This document shows, in pieces, positions 50,068 through 61,960 of a stretch of 64,000 nt of DNA. The stretch lies in contig NZ_MWQN01000001.1 in the NCBI RefSeq assembly GCF_002024165.1, positions 1,364,001 through 1,428,000 on the forward strand. The letters run 5' to 3'. Position 1 is the stretch's first letter. Each line of letters starts with the position of its first letter. The notes beneath the pieces are model-generated. The model was given only the letters and a program-made list of their open reading frames with translations, searched no databases and was not told where the DNA came from. The DNA comes from Embleya scabrispora. Lineage in GTDB: Bacteria > Actinomycetota > Actinomycetes > Streptomycetales > Streptomycetaceae. Made by a program: the position numbers and the translations under genes.

Positions 50068-51771
50068 TCAGGCGTCGAGCAGGCGCTTCCGCTGGGCCTC
50101 GACGTCGAAGTCGCCGGCCGGGTAGCGGGGGTCCAACTCGGTCAGGTGCTCCAGGAGCAGCCGGCTGATCGCCCAGTTGCGGTACCACTTGCGGTCGGCC
50201 GGCACCACGTACCAGGGCGCCGCGTCGCCGTCGCACTTCTCCAACGCGGCCTCGTAGGCGGTGCGGTAGTCGGGCCACACGGAACGCTCGTCGATGTCGG
50301 CCGGGTTGAACTTCCAGTGCTTGTCCGGGTTGTCGAGCCGGGCCAGCAGGCGTTCCTTCTGCTCCTCGGGCGAGATGTGCAGGAAGACCTTGACGACGGT
50401 CACCTCGTCCTTCGCCAGGCCCTGCTCGAAGCGGTTGATCGTGGCGTAGCGGCGCGACCAGACCTGACGCGGGACCAGGTTGCGCACCCGGGCGATCAGT
50501 ACGTCCTCGTAGTGCGAGCGGTCGAACACGCCGATCAGACCGGGTCCGGGCACCTGGGCGCGGACCCGCCACAGGAACGGGTGGGCGAGTTCGTCCTCGG
50601 TCGGCGCCTTGAACGCGTGGATGTGGCAGCCCGACGGGTTGAACTGGCCGATCACGTGCTTGACCGTACCGCCCTTGCCGGAGGTGTCCATGCCCTGGAC
50701 CACCAGGAGCACCCGGCGGCGGGCGCCGCCGGCCACGGCCTGCGCGTACAGCCGCTCCTGGAGTTCGGCCAGCCGGGGCCCCATCGCGCCGATGTCGGCG
50801 AGCGCGTCGGCCTTGTCGCCCGCGAAGCTCGGCGTGGCGCGCGGATCGATCGCGGCCAGGTCCACGGGGCCGCCCGGCAGCCGCAACGCGGCCCGTACGG
50901 ACGGCACATCGGCCGGGGGCGTGTACGTGTCGGCGGGCGCCTCGACGAGCACCCGGAGCCGGGGCGGGGCGGGCTCGGGTCGCAACTCGGCCGGGCCCGG
51001 GGCGACGGCGGGCGGGGCGCTGGGGTCGACGGCGGGCTCGGCGGCGGGGTCCGGATCGCCCGCGTCGGCGACCAAGTGCACGGCCCGCCCGACGGGCGGC
51101 TCCGGGTCCGCGGCCGGCGCCTCGGCGATCGCGCGCTCGGCCTCGGTCTGCTTCGCGAGTGCCCTCGCCGCCTTCGCGGCCTCGGCGGCGACCCGCTCGG
51201 CCGCGGCCTCCAGCGCCTCGGCGGCCTTGCGGTCCGCCTTCTTCGCGGCCTTCTTCGCGGCCTTGGCGAGGTCGGCCTGCGCCTCGCGCTCCGCCTTGAG
51301 CACCTTGGCCGCCTTCTTCGCGGCCTTCTTGGCGGCCTTGGCGGCCTCGTCGACCCGATCCGCCTTCGCGGCGCGGGCGGCCTTGTCGGGACCGGTGGCC
51401 TTGGCGGGCTTGCCGAGCTTCGTGGGCTTGGCGGTCTTGTCACCCTTGGCGGCCTTCGCAGGCTTGGCGGCCTTGTCGAGGTCGGCGGACTTCGCGGGCT
51501 TTGCGGGCTTCGCGGGCTTTGCGGGCTTTGCGGGTTTCGCCGCCTTCGCGGGTTTGGCGGGTTTTGCCGCCTTCGCGGGTTCGGTGGCCTTGTCGCCCTT
51601 CGCGAGCTTGTCGAACTTGGCGGGCTTCTCGGGCTTGCCGGCCTTCTTCGTGGCCGTCGCCCCCTTCACGACCGCCTCGGCGTCCGGGGCCTCGCCCAGG
51701 CCCACCGGCGTCGACCCCTTCGTGCCCCGGTCGGCCCTGCCTGCACTCCTGCCGTCGGCCTTCTTCGCCAT
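50068..51771 (-). CDS. ppk2: Polyphosphate kinase 2 with a histone-H1-like Lys/Ala/Pro tail
   Basis: A 567-aa protein. Residues 295-567 form a normal PPK2: Walker A VVQGMDTSGKGG (358-369), Walker B-like GVFDRSHYEDVL and the lid SRRYATINRFEQ. It transfers phosphate between polyphosphate and nucleotides. Residues 1-215 are a highly basic, low-complexity tail built from PAK, AAK and AKKA repeats, most regular at 66-96 and 143-182. Residues 220-290 are an acidic Pro/Ala linker. PPK2 proteins usually have about 260-300 residues. The tail could bind polyphosphate or DNA. The ATG at 51771 is the natural start. Confidence 0.92.
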   Translation of the reverse strand: MAKKADGRSAGRADRGTKGSTPVGLGEAPDAEAVVKGATATKKAGKPEKPAKFDKLAKGDKATEPAKAAKPAKPAKAAKPAKPAKPAKPAKPAKSADLDKAAKPAKAAKGDKTAKPTKLGKPAKATGPDKAARAAKADRVDEAAKAAKKAAKKAAKVLKAEREAQADLAKAAKKAAKKADRKAAEALEAAAERVAAEAAKAARALAKQTEAERAIAEAPAADPEPPVGRAVHLVADAGDPDPAAEPAVDPSAPPAVAPGPAELRPEPAPPRLRVLVEAPADTYTPPADVPSVRAALRLPGGPVDLAAIDPRATPSFAGDKADALADIGAMGPRLAELQERLYAQAVAGGARRRVLLVVQGMDTSGKGGTVKHVIGQFNPSGCHIHAFKAPTEDELAHPFLWRVRAQVPGPGLIGVFDRSHYEDVLIARVRNLVPRQVWSRRYATINRFEQGLAKDEVTVVKVFLHISPEEQKERLLARLDNPDKHWKFNPADIDERSVWPDYRTAYEAALEKCDGDAAPWYVVPADRKWYRNWAISRLLLEHLTELDPRYPAGDFDVEAQRKRLLDA

Positions 51772-56248: not shown

Positions 56249-56290
56249 ACGGGCGGCGCCGCTCGGGCCGGCCCGGGCGGCGCCGCCCGT
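56249..56290 (+). terminator. Near-perfect 21-bp hairpin after msrB
   Basis: ACGGGCGGCGCC (56249-56260) pairs with GGCGCCGCCCGT (56279-56290), and the enclosed GCTCGGGCC/GGCCCGGGC continues the stem with one G-T pair. It separates msrB from the next operon. Confidence 0.75.
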
Positions 56291-56369
56291 TCAAACATCG
56301 GTACCGGCGGTGCGGCAAAACTCACATCGAGCCCGCGTGCGGCGGGCGCGTCCGCTATGCCTGGGGACC

Positions 56370-57245
56370 ATGAATCCCTGGCTGCCACCCCTCGCGTACT
56401 CGGCCTGGACGGCGCTCGTACTCGGCGTCGCCATCGGGTCCGCCCGGCGCGGCGGCCGACGGGCGGACCGGGCGCGCCTGGCGGAACTGGACGCGGCCGA
56501 GTACGCGTTCGTCGGCGGCGGTGCGGCCCGCGCGGCCGACGTGTCCATCCTGGCCCTGCTCGGCGCGGGCGCGCTGCACCTGAACCGCGACGGGCAGGTG
56601 GTCGCGGCCCGGGCGCCGGCGGCCGACGCGGCGGGCGACGCGCCGCTGCGGATCCTGGACCGGGAGTACGGCGGCCTGCCGCTGCGCGACCTACGCACCC
56701 GGGTGGCCGCGGCGCCGGAGATCCAGGGCATCGGCGCCGACCTGTTCGCCGCCGGCCTGATCGCCCGCCCGGACGCGGGCCCGCGTCGGCTGCCCCGCTG
56801 GGCACTGTTCGCCACCCTCCCCCTGGGCCCGGCCACCGCGATCGCGGGCTTCGTCCGCGCCGACGACGCGACCTCCGGCGCGCTGCCGTGGGTGGGCCTG
56901 CTGCTCGCGGTCATCGGCAGCCAGGCGTGTGTCGCGGGCCTGCTGCTCCTGGGCGTGTTCGGCGAGCGGGTGGTGCCCACCGCGCCGACCATGCGCCGGC
57001 TGATCCGGCTGCGCCGCGACGAGACGGCCGTGGCCGCGCTCGGCGCCGACGGCCTGGGCACGGTCGCCCTGTGGGGCCTGGACCGCTTCCCCGACCCGGT
57101 GGTCAAGGAGATCTTCCGCCGCAACGCGCCCACCCCCGCCGGCCGCCCCCCGCAGTCCGCCTGGTGCGGCGGCGCCTCCTGCGCCTCCCCCCAGGGCGCC
57201 CGGGCAGGCTCCTGCGGCGGCACCGCCGACGGTTGCGGCACCTGA
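56370..57245 (+). CDS. TIGR04222-type membrane protein with Cys-rich C-terminus
   Basis: A 291-aa protein. An N-terminal helix (WLPPLAYSAWTALVLGVAIG) precedes a domain with AEYAFVGGG and SILALLGAGALHLNRDGQV, which I recognise as the TIGR04222 family. Two more helices lie near residues 150-167 and 180-205. The tail from 250 is low complexity with C266, C271, C282 and C289 among Gly/Ala/Ser. The stop lies 87 bp upstream of the MNIO gene on the same strand. The Cys tail could be a substrate of that enzyme. Biological role is unknown. Confidence 0.8.
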   Translation: MNPWLPPLAYSAWTALVLGVAIGSARRGGRRADRARLAELDAAEYAFVGGGAARAADVSILALLGAGALHLNRDGQVVAARAPAADAAGDAPLRILDREYGGLPLRDLRTRVAAAPEIQGIGADLFAAGLIARPDAGPRRLPRWALFATLPLGPATAIAGFVRADDATSGALPWVGLLLAVIGSQACVAGLLLLGVFGERVVPTAPTMRRLIRLRRDETAVAALGADGLGTVALWGLDRFPDPVVKEIFRRNAPTPAGRPPQSAWCGGASCASPQGARAGSCGGTADGCGT

Positions 57246-57332
57246 CCGACCGCGCCCGCGGCGCGCTCGGGGCGGGCGAACCGAGGGAACTCCGCCTGGT
57301 TCGGTCCGGGACGGACCCGCCATGCTGGACGC

Positions 57333-58145
57333 ATGCGGACAGCGGTGGGAATCGGATGGCGGCCGGAGATCGATCTGACCGTCGAGCGCCTGGCCGGCGT
57401 CGACTTCGTCGAGGTCGTCGCCGAGAACGTATGCGTCGGACACCTGCCCGAGTCACTGCGCGTGTTGTGCGAGCGCGGCGTCGAGGTCATCCCGCACGGC
57501 GTCGGCCTCGGCCTGGCCGGCGCCGACCGCCCCGACCCCGCACGCCTGGCCCGGCTGGCCGAGGTCGCCGGCGCCCTCGGCTCGCCGGTGGTCAGCGAAC
57601 ACCTGGCGTTCGTCCGGGCCGGCGGTATGGAGGCCGGTCACCTGCTGCCCACACCGATGACGTGGGACGCGCTCGACGTGGTCGCGGAAAACGTCCGCAT
57701 CGCCCAGGACGCGCTGCCGGTCCCGCTCGCCCTGGAGAACCCGGCGACGCTGCTGACCTGGCCCGACAACGAGATGAGCGAGGCCCGCTTCCTGACCGAA
57801 CTGGTCGAGCGCACCGGCGTGCGGCTGCTGATCGACGTGGCCAACCTGCACACCCAGCGGATCAACCACGGCGTCGACCCGGCCGCCGCACTGGCCGAAC
57901 TCCCGCTGGAGGCGGTGGAGTACGTACACGTCGCCGGCGGCGTCGAACGCGACGGCCTGTGGCACGACACCCACGCGCACCCGGTGACCGAGCCGATCCT
58001 GGAGGTGCTGGCCACGCTGTGCGCGCTGCGCCCGCCGCCGCGCGTACTGCTCGAACGCGACGGCGACTTCCCGACGGCGGGCGAGATCGCCGCCGAGTTG
58101 GCCGCGATCCGCGCCGTGGTGGACCGCACGGCGGTGCGCCGGTGA
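57333..58145 (+). CDS. DUF692/MNIO-family multinuclear iron oxygenase
   Basis: A 270-aa TIM-barrel protein of the DUF692 family, now called MNIO (MbnB, TglH and bufferin enzymes), which oxidise cysteine or other residues in RiPP precursors. Candidate iron ligands line up with the family: H55 (PHGVG), H90 (SEHLAF), E135 (LENP), D168 and N171 with H173 (DVANLH), H199 (YVHVAGG), D212/H214/H216 (DTHAHP) and E241 (LLERDGDFP). Length is normal. Its stop overlaps the partner gene's GTG. Neighbouring Cys-rich proteins are likely substrates; product chemistry is not known. Confidence 0.92.
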
Positions 58146-58537
58146 ACGCGCGCGAGCGGCTGGCCGCACAGCAGAGCGCGCTGCTCGCGGCACTGGTCGC
58201 CGGCGGGCCGACACCGCCGGGCTTCGACCCGGACCGGGTACGCGTCCAGGCCCGCGCGCTGGCCGCCAAGCGGCGCGACTCGGCGCTGCGCGCGGTGCCG
58301 GAGTTGGCGACGACGCTGGGCCCGCGCTGGCCGGGCGAGTTCATGACCTGGGCCCTGGTCCACCCGAAGCCCGCCGAGGGCGGCACCCGCGCCGACGTAC
58401 ACGCCTTCGCGGCCCATCTGTGGGAACGGGACGCGCTGCCGAAGGCGCTGGCCGAGGTGTTCGTCGAACGAAAGCCGTCCCGATGGACCCGGCTGCGCTC
58501 ACGACTCGCATCCCGTGCGCCGGCCGGCCACGGGTAG
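58142..58537 (+). CDS. Small MNIO partner protein
   Basis: A 131-aa helical protein starting at a GTG that overlaps the MNIO stop (GTGA). [17 protein letters not shown] and [20 protein letters not shown] form the conserved N-terminal part. I recall the same sequence type as a C-terminal domain in some streptomycete DUF692 proteins (SCO6045-like), so here it is a split form. By analogy with MbnC and TglI it may present the precursor to the oxygenase. The C-terminus is strongly basic. Confidence 0.75.
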
Positions 58538-58563
58538 GTACTCCACGCACGGGGGTCGACACC

Positions 58564-58983
58564 ATGTTCTTGCCGCTGCTCGTTGCGGGGGTGGTCCTCG
58601 CCGCCGCCGTACCGGTCGTCATCGTCGTCCTGGCCCACCGCGCGGCCCGACGCAGGCTCCGCCACGCCTTCGGCCGACCGGCCGGCCCGCCCTTCGGGCG
58701 CGCACCGGGCACCGGCGTACCGTATGGCGGCGGGCCCGGCCCGTGGCCACCCGGCCCGCAGGGACACCAGGGGTACGACGCGCACGACCACCATCACCAT
58801 CACCACTGGCGCGGCCACCACACCTCGTGCGGCACCGGCTGGTCCTGCGGCGGAGGCGGGGGCAGAGGCGGCAACTCGTCGTGTTCGAGCGGATCGTCGT
58901 GTTCGAGCGGGTCATCGTGTTCGAGCGGATCGTCCTGCGGGTCGTCGTGTTCGAGCGGGTCGTCCTGTTCGAGTTCGACCTAG
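58564..58983 (+). CDS. Membrane-anchored His6/Cys-repeat protein, candidate MNIO substrate
   Basis: A 139-aa protein. Residues 2-24 form a single membrane helix, followed by a basic cluster (AHRAARRRLRHAF), so the rest is probably cytoplasmic. A Gly/Pro linker (37-70) leads to a His-rich block with six consecutive histidines (76-81) plus H74, H85 and H86. Eight cysteines follow at 89, 95, 107, 113, 119, 125, 129 and 135, mostly as C-S-S-G-S-S-C repeats. It starts 26 bp after the partner gene. Metal binding and modification by the MNIO are inferred. Coding DNA shows 18-bp tandem repeats. Confidence 0.75.
   Translation: MFLPLLVAGVVLAAAVPVVIVVLAHRAARRRLRHAFGRPAGPPFGRAPGTGVPYGGGPGPWPPGPQGHQGYDAHDHHHHHHWRGHHTSCGTGWSCGGGGGRGGNSSCSSGSSCSSGSSCSSGSSCGSSCSSGSSCSSST
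58887..58980. repeat. 18-bp tandem repeats encoding the C-S-S-G-S-S tail
   Basis: Units of the form TGTTCGAGCGGRTCRTCG recur in frame about five times, with one shortened unit, at the end of the Cys-rich gene. The copies differ mainly at third codon positions, so the peptide repeat is kept while DNA varies. Confidence 0.7.
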
Positions 58984-59004: not shown

Positions 59005-59047
59005 CCGGTCGGTCGGAGCGATCGATCGCAGCCCGCCGACCGACCGG
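59005..59047. terminator. Bidirectional hairpin between the Cys-rich gene and hemQ
   Basis: CCGGTCGGTCGG (59005-59016) pairs with CCGACCGACCGG (59036-59047). Its loop contains a second palindrome, GCGATCGATCGC (59018-59029). It separates two convergent operons. Confidence 0.7.
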
Positions 59048-61321: not shown

Positions 61322-61960
61322 CACCGAACCACCCACGTCACACCCTCTCCCACAATCCACCCCAACCCAACCCCCGAACCCAAACCCCCCAAAAGCCCAC
61401 CAACAACCAAAACCACCCCAATGCCGCGGAACTAACCCTCAACCAACCCAATCAAACCCAGCCGCCCCCTGCCCCCACCCAGGCCAATCCACCCCACCCC
61501 GACCCAACCAAGCCGACTGGCCCCCAAACCAGCCGACCAAGCCGGCCAAGTCAGCCCGATCAGCGCTTGAGGCCACCCCAACCCGACCAAATCCCACCGC
61601 CACCCCAACCACAAACCACATCAGCCCAGCCGGCGCTCAAGGCCAAACCGCCCACCTCACCGCAACCAATCCAGCCCGGCCGGCGCTTGAGGCCACCCCA
61701 ACCCGACCGAACCCCAACGCCGGCGCGACCACAAACCACATTCAGCCCGGCCGGCCCTCAAGACCAAGCCACCCACCTCACCGCAACCAATCCAGCCCGG
61801 CCGGCGCTTGAGGCCACCCCAACCCGACCGAACCCCAACGCCGGCCCAACCACAAACCACATTCAGCCCGGCCGGCGCATGAGGCCAAAGCCGCTCTCCC
61901 CCAACCCCAGCCGAACCACAAACCCCCAGCCCGGCCGGCGCATGAGGCCAAAAAGCCGAC
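61322..61960. repeat. Seven REP-like cores in a 121-bp tandem array between hemE and hemY
   Basis: Seven 23-bp cores like CAGCCCGGCCGGCGCTTGAG begin at 61552, 61622, 61672, 61743, 61793, 61864 and 61927. Cores one, three and five are 120-121 bp apart, as are two, four and six, so the array is a roughly 121-bp tandem duplication with two cores per unit. The left part (61336-61550) is A+C-rich on this strand with few G or T. I see no gene in it. The core resembles a REP-type element common in streptomycete intergenic DNA. Confidence 0.85.

Follow-up and report, generated by a model that had tools for sequence, protein, structure and literature searches.

Gene content of the cassette

We analysed a window of 64,000 nucleotides from the soil actinobacterium Embleya scabrispora (assembly GCF_002024165.1, contig NZ_MWQN01000001.1, positions 1,364,001–1,428,000); all positions given below follow the numbering of this window. 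Between 56370 and 58983 it contains a cassette of four genes on one strand, which encode a TIGR04222 membrane protein, an MNIO, a partner protein and a His6/Cys protein. The original prediction had described these four open reading frames (ORFs) as an MNIO module with membrane-tethered, Cys-rich candidate substrates; all four are present at these positions and on the same strand, and the results presented here support such a module. The features are:

56370..57245, plus strand: TIGR04222 membrane protein P0001, 291 aa, matching the TIGR04222 profile
57162..57242, plus strand: C-terminal tail of P0001, candidate MNIO substrate; 27 residues, starts WCGG, 4 Cys
57333..58145, plus strand: MNIO (DUF692, PF05114) P0002, 270 aa, nine TglH-type iron ligands
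58142..58537, plus strand: MNIO partner P0003, 131 aa, all-alpha model, DUF2063-like (candidate PME-type 2)
58564..58983, plus strand: single-pass membrane protein P0004, 139 aa, Embleya-clade candidate second substrate
58789–58806, plus strand: His6 stretch of P0004
58828–58968, plus strand: Cys/Ser/Gly repeat tail of P0004, 8 Cys

P0001 and the MNIO gene are separated by 87 nucleotides (nt), P0003 starts with a GTG codon and overlaps the MNIO stop by 4 nt, and P0004 follows the partner gene after 26 nt. As had been claimed, neither an exporter gene nor a separate leader-peptide gene is found among the four.

The MNIO and its partner

P0002 matches PF05114 with 266.6 bits (E = 2.6e-79, curated cut-off 25). 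The closest named relative found is E. hyalina, with an MNIO that is 98% identical. The nine iron ligands of TglH are listed in PMC10880893. The predicted full set of candidate ligands is indeed present, as residues H55, H90, E135, D168, N171, H199, D212, H214 and E241 of P0002 align with all nine, and these positions are invariant in 26 aligned MNIOs (26 of the 81 available). Judged by its sequence, P0002 looks like a complete iron enzyme. Its match to TglH has an E-value of 4.5e-21; the score for the MbnB model TIGR04159 is 38.2 (cut-off 325). An assignment to the bufferins was rejected, because the BufB equivalog score of 192.2 lies below the cut-off of 310. Matches to P0002 occur in 246 of 297 Streptomycetaceae species genomes; nine of the 246, weaker than 1e-60, probably represent other MNIO subfamilies.

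No family match, in Pfam or otherwise, was obtained for P0003. Linkage was studied in 81 loci, namely the window and the 80 best of 367 named loci, which are ranked by similarity to P0002 and are thus near relatives; two of them (L039 and L040) are contigs of one assembly. The partner domain is present in 80 of these 81 Streptomycetaceae loci, and the one locus without it (L072) stops at a contig border. In 59 loci the partner and the MNIO form one ORF, with the partner at the C-terminus and a linker of varying length; in 21 the partner is a separate neighbouring or overlapping ORF. Two of the partner ORFs (L089, L095), which overlap the MNIO frame by 200–300 nt, could be fusions broken by a frameshift. 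In the 40 stretches retrieved through TIGR04222, the partner occurs in 19 of 21 MNIO loci, and four more loci, fetched through a partner match, hold both MNIO and partner. The partner profile matched 12 of 296 sampled genomes of the phylum, 8 of these 12 in Streptomycetaceae.

The relation of the partner to DUF2063 was assessed in several ways. PF09836 (DUF2063) was matched by 2 of 27 diverse partners, with E = 2e-4 and 22 bits, which is under the 27.2-bit cut-off. A wide partner alignment compared with eight proteins of DUF2063 type, encoded in MNIO operons on plasmids, gave P = 8e-4, with a collinear N-terminal domain. For a narrower alignment, the only one for which controls were made, P was 0.045 with DUF2063, as compared to 0.26 and 0.36 for two unrelated families. 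The AlphaFold model of P0003 is all-helical (mean pLDDT 86); partner profiles searched against the sequences of solved structures brought no convincing match (best E-values 1.2 and 0.85). The partner family looks like a shortened DUF2063 domain, and on the basis of sequence and model P0003 is a candidate PME-type 2 protein. PMC12452194 states that partner genes seem to be missing from many TIGR04222-MNIO clusters and that PME-type 2 proteins are encoded in at least 10% of them; fusion of MNIO and partner could be one simple reason why partners were overlooked.

The TIGR04222 protein and its cysteine tail

P0001 scores 62.8 bits against TIGR04222 (cut-off 43). In the AlphaFold model, helices 5–27, 143–164 and 172–198 were taken as membrane-spanning; the folded core 34–132 resembles, by eye, two winged-helix-like units, and the tail has low pLDDT and no secondary structure. 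Its 27 residues are almost invariant across the Embleya clade.

We defined a Cys tail in the 81 loci as at least four Cys among the last 100 residues. A Cys-tailed TIGR04222 protein is present in 73 of the 81; of the eight misses, L059, L072, L088 and L105 reach contig ends, and the rest (L086, L092, L108 and L101) are considered below. The TIGR04222 gene lies upstream of the MNIO gene in the Embleya clade and, by its position, likewise in Yinghuangia; it lies downstream in 72 loci. The composition of 72 tails is 41% Ser, 36% Gly and 13% Cys (90% for the three together), and three or more His occur in 3 of 73. In the Embleya clade (5 proteins) the tail has 27 residues and 4 Cys, elsewhere (64 proteins) a median of 67 residues and 9 Cys. 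A Trp-Cys pair, mostly followed by Gly or Ala, opens the tail in 71 of 75 Cys-tailed proteins of near relatives and occurs in none of the Cys-less TIGR04222 copies. At one locus (L249, genome G010) the TIGR04222 tail mixes His and Cys beside a one-ORF MNIO-partner and recalls the His6/Cys mix of P0004.

A further 47 TIGR04222 matches at the 81 loci have fewer than four Cys and mostly represent a second copy next door; in many Streptomycetaceae loci this second, Cys-less gene comes after the first, for example at L055:8450-9271. Cys-less copies persist in genomes lacking an MNIO, and this paralogue likely has a separate role.

Covariation of cysteine tails with the MNIO

Within the family, we compared 20 MNIO-negative genomes (the first 20 of 51, with genus g3 heavily represented) with 20 MNIO-positive genomes picked across genera from the 246. 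Among the MNIO-negative genomes, 11 have a TIGR04222 match and none a Cys tail (0–2 Cys in the last 100 residues), whereas 16 of the MNIO-positive genomes have a TIGR04222 match and 13 a Cys-tailed one. The difference of 13/20 versus 0/20 corresponds to a Fisher p of 1.3e-5 with kinship ignored; note that the per-genome searches score a limited number of candidates, so that single genomes may be misjudged. Outside the family, 37 stretches were evaluated (the 40 minus three of the Embleya genome), four of which gave no match to the TIGR04222 profile, and a Cys tail was taken as at least three Cys in the last 60 residues. It was found in 18 of 19 TIGR04222 loci with an MNIO and in 4 of 14 without (p = 1e-4, kinship again ignored). 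In these comparisons, Cys tails track the presence of the MNIO.

The fourth protein

P0004 begins with a hydrophobic helix, which is followed by a Pro/Gly linker, a stretch of six His and a repeat of Cys, Ser and Gly; it has eight Cys in all. It evolves fast. In comparison with E. hyalina, third-position changes are in excess (31/65, binomial p = 0.011), and the ORF is kept intact in the other Embleya-clade loci; for these two reasons P0004 looks like a genuine coding sequence. A P0004 profile found all four genomes of the genus and, among 146 other genomes of the family, two weak matches with internal stops. The proposed linkage of four genes in relatives is strongly conserved for the first three, whereas P0004 is specific to the genus in the genomes searched. 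We also looked in the 81 loci and 44 other stretches for ORFs other than TIGR04222 that end in Cys/Ser/Gly/His tails; this yielded nothing beyond the P0004 type and a single short ORF at L195, other Cys-rich kinds not having been sought. P0004-type proteins coincide exactly with the short, 27-residue form of the TIGR04222 tail. Based on this pattern, Embleya P0004 seems to be the repetitive tail moved onto a small anchor of its own, that is, a split substrate.

Orientation of the tails

The averaged profile of 70 TIGR04222 proteins contains three hydrophobic segments. Lys and Arg are absent ahead of segment 1, numerous after segment 1, before segment 2 and after segment 3, and few between segments 2 and 3. 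A first charge count placed the tail inside in 71 of 73 near relatives and in 33 of 37 further proteins, although this count leans towards tail-in owing to the short N-terminal segment, and the 37 include the two other copies of Embleya itself. A second count, which compares residue densities and is restricted to the residues flanking helices two and three, gave tail-in for 67 of 73 near relatives (5 tail-out, 1 tie). In the AlphaFold model of P0001, three long helices at these positions would place the folded core and the tail on one side. For P0004, Lys and Arg are absent ahead of the helix in all four distinct homologues, and an Arg-rich run follows it. Taken at face value, the charges lean towards a cytosolic tail, and with such a tail the missing leader peptide and exporter would no longer be a puzzle.

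Relation to known systems

The most similar system is the TIGR04222-MNIO-PME2 class, which was described in silico in 2025 (Antoine et al., PMC12452194): what look like the same three families are clustered, TIGR04222 membrane proteins with Ser/Gly/Cys tails lie beside MNIOs, some with PME-type 2 partners, there is no DUF2063 proper, and the occurrence is mostly in Actinomycetota. P0001 is a Cys-tailed TIGR04222 protein beside an MNIO, and the first three genes of the cassette, the third as a candidate PME-type 2 protein, represent this candidate class; the expectation of an undescribed system finds no support for them. Modification of the tail Cys by the MNIO is a proposal in that paper as well. 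Embleya adds to the class a separate fourth protein, a His6/Cys anchor protein. Moreover, nearly every locus studied here has a partner, often fused, whereas many clusters of the paper seem to have none, and the tails, which that work regards as probably periplasmic from predicted topology, are predicted here to be cytosolic. The Trp-Cys motif and the joint loss of tails and MNIO do not appear in the available parts of PMC12452194. As far as the literature was searched, the following points are new: a fourth protein that carries the split-off tail, the fusion of partner and MNIO, Trp-Cys at the head of the tail, the joint loss of Cys tail and MNIO, and the reading of the tails as cytosolic. 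Some of them may be contained in other parts of that paper.

In the bufferins (Buf1/Buf2; BufB), too, an MNIO and a DUF2063-like partner act on Cys, with a role in metal stress; for the cassette, both the action on Cys and the stress role are presumed. The precursors of bufferins carry a Sec signal peptide, their partner is a full DUF2063-RRE protein, and bufferins work outside the cytosol. In contrast, the candidates in the cassette are anchored in the membrane, and the partner, at 131 aa, amounts to a short helical domain without a PF09836 match. The N-terminal helices of P0001 and P0004 lack a charged n-region, as judged by inspection of the sequence and not by a signal-peptide program. TglHI (3-thiaglutamate) and MbnBC (methanobactin) share the enzyme-partner pair, and the nine TglH iron ligands are conserved here; the substrates of these enzymes are precursor peptides (TglA extended by a C-terminal Cys; MbnA), and none of the four genes here was recognised as coding for one. 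By analogy with other MNIO systems, and given their Cys/His composition, the tails may bind metal.

In the papers found, no function is shown for the TIGR04222 class. Streptomyces coelicolor offers indirect data. Its hemG is SCO6041 and its hemQ SCO6042 (PMC5069765). From this numbering and the conserved gene order, the S. coelicolor MNIO is probably SCO6045. We take this gene to be the one annotated as UPF0276. SCO6045 is up 3-fold with H2O2, alongside genes of cysteine biosynthesis and methionine uptake, and is among 28 genes deregulated in an hbpS-senS-senR mutant (PMC4991794); the H2O2 response fits a thiol or redox role. No mention of SCO6043, SCO6044 or SCO6046 was found in the literature searched, and the available main text of a paper on the sigma-E regulon (PMC6767563) names no SCO603x or SCO604x gene.

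Surroundings of the cassette

The following elements flank the cassette:

56249..56290, no strand: inverted repeat with 21-nt arms, directly after msrB
56309..56359, plus strand: conserved upstream blocks GGTGCGGC, ACTCACATC and a CGTCC-CTA block, from an alignment of four Embleya-clade loci
59005..59047, no strand: inverted repeat with 12-nt arms, between the convergent P0004 and hemQ

Strong hairpins had been thought to bracket the gene set. The inverted repeats exist, but their role as cassette borders was rejected on account of their positions: the first is probably the end of the msrB transcript and not part of the cassette, and the second, in the gap between P0004 and hemQ, probably serves as a two-way transcript end. 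No T-run terminator was found. The blocks at 56309–56359 are the presumed cassette promoter. Simple patterns for SigR-, Zur- and sigma-70-like sites found no match upstream.

In 70 of the 81 loci hemQ/hemG are nearby on the opposite strand. The cassette therefore occupies mostly one chromosomal place, which suggests vertical inheritance. The opposite strand led us to reject an operon with the heme genes, and a functional link to msrB was rejected as well, since msrB lies within about 6 kb in only 12 of the 81 loci. These neighbours had been read as a pointer to metal or redox stress; the heme genes reflect synteny, and their presence alone says little on function.

Upstream of the Streptomyces MNIO gene, a conserved element AACCTCAAAT-N4-CTCTGAACG was seen in 49 of 78 named loci read; further locations are L277 near 4453, L275 and L276. 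Its near form gave 12 matches in 10 of 12 Streptomycetaceae genomes and none with a reversed control. Nine of the matches are by the MNIO locus (one of them, in G059, judged only from a nearby TIGR04222), one is just upstream of another TIGR04222 gene (G079), and two precede no obvious gene (G009, G051). The element is similar to an ECF promoter (GGAAC, then CGTC), but this reading was not adopted, because several copies lack CGTC.

Two repeat regions lie elsewhere in the window. Between hemG and hemE (61552–61952) there is a tandem array with a 121-bp unit, 2.7 copies and 91% match, plus related 63-bp units. At 51362–51645, degenerate 9- and 18-bp tandem repeats occur amid long overlapping ORFs and probably encode a low-complexity tail, on the minus strand.

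Interpretation and alternatives

The explanation we prefer, with a probability of about 0.5, is that a cytosolic MNIO and its partner modify Cys residues of membrane-tethered tails that face the cytosol, yielding a soft-metal or redox buffer, and that in Embleya the tail is split. The module would be an actinobacterial one, vertically inherited, of which the cassette is the Embleya form. The MNIO and the DUF2063-like partner would oxidise Cys in disordered Cys/Ser/Gly tails, which the anchors of both TIGR04222 protein and P0004 would show at the inner face of the membrane, such that the enzyme could meet the tail directly and neither leader peptide nor export nor proteolysis would be needed. 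Trp-Cys at the head of the TIGR04222 tail might be a recognition site or the first target, the repetitive tail would in Embleya have shifted to the separate P0004, and the product would probably be a membrane-tethered, oxidatively modified soft-metal or redox buffer. From gene content, iron ligands, linkage, fusion, Cys-tail/MNIO covariation and charge bias, all of which are properties of the sequences, we infer the modification and its chemistry, the location of the tails, the metal or redox role and the part of P0004 as a substrate. A more far-reaching version is clearly more tentative: that actinobacterial MNIOs modify full membrane proteins instead of exported peptides, do so on the cytosolic face and thereby build a membrane-bound, polymeric Cys-derived buffer for metal or redox purposes, with the substrate divided in Embleya between a TIGR04222 scaffold, which has a short Trp-Cys tail, and a detached, His-bearing Cys-repeat carrier modified in trans.

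A number of observations weigh against this explanation. No TIGR04222 match was found at L086, L092 and L108, and L101 has a Cys-less copy only. Among the MNIO-positive genomes, G005 and G026 have Cys-less TIGR04222 only, the tail in G010 has few Cys, with His, and no TIGR04222 was found in the stretch examined of G009, G021 and G051 or, by genome search alone, in G012. All counts and p values ignore shared ancestry. The Trp-Cys pair is present in 8 of 13 Cys tails of a wider family sample and in 0 of 36 outside Streptomycetaceae, and thus marks a subgroup. Two further Cys-tailed TIGR04222 proteins of the same Embleya genome, L171 (contig C3) and L172 (C1), have no MNIO in their 12-kb stretch; in this genome a single full-length MNIO match was obtained besides a weak partial one, and the single MNIO might serve both proteins in trans. 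These two copies split 1 to 1 on charge, and P0001 itself is charged before helix two and has few charges after its third helix. The literature searched contains no report of a modified TIGR04222 protein, and the identity of SCO6045 is inferred from gene order.

The same enzyme-substrate pair could also operate with tails that are modified in the cytosol and then exposed outside the membrane, as in bufferins, which act there. This arrangement, proposed in PMC12452194, is possible but somewhat unlikely. It gains from a moderately hydrophobic stretch after the third helix, a possible fourth one, in 15 of 73 tails from Streptomycetaceae and in 7 of 38 from elsewhere, which leaves room for a periplasmic tail, and from the residue-density count outside the family, which is weaker than the first count (26 of 35 tail-in, 8 tail-out, 1 tie). 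However, it has to contend with the charge pattern of the near relatives, with an averaged profile of three hydrophobic segments and almost no charge before the first, and with the Arg run behind the P0004 helix. Quite improbable, in our estimate, is that the tails are unmodified, metallothionein-like thiol ligands and the MNIO acts on another substrate. Low-complexity Cys/Ser/Gly/His sequences could bind metal as they are, and some genomes keep the MNIO-partner genes with no Cys-tailed TIGR04222 found in their vicinity; yet Cys tails go with the MNIO both within the family and outside it, and the search for other ORFs with such tails gave just the P0004 type and the short ORF at L195.

With respect to P0004, the three-gene core alone could be the system and P0004 an unrelated Embleya neighbour, as its fast evolution and its restriction to the four genomes of the genus would allow. 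We regard this as unlikely, because P0004 is on the same strand closely behind the partner, adjoins the cassette in all four genomes, and carries a tail of the same Cys/Ser/Gly units only where the TIGR04222 tail is short.

Our preferred explanation, modification of tethered tails at the cytosolic face, bears on the family as a whole, as this MNIO is widespread among Streptomycetaceae and its locus keeps a conserved position on the chromosome. Should the tails be both modified and located in the cytosol, MNIO chemistry would reach resident membrane proteins, beyond exported peptides, and laboratory streptomycetes would probably already carry the system. The co-loss of the tails, the natural MNIO-partner fusion and the Trp-Cys motif offer simple entry points for biochemistry.

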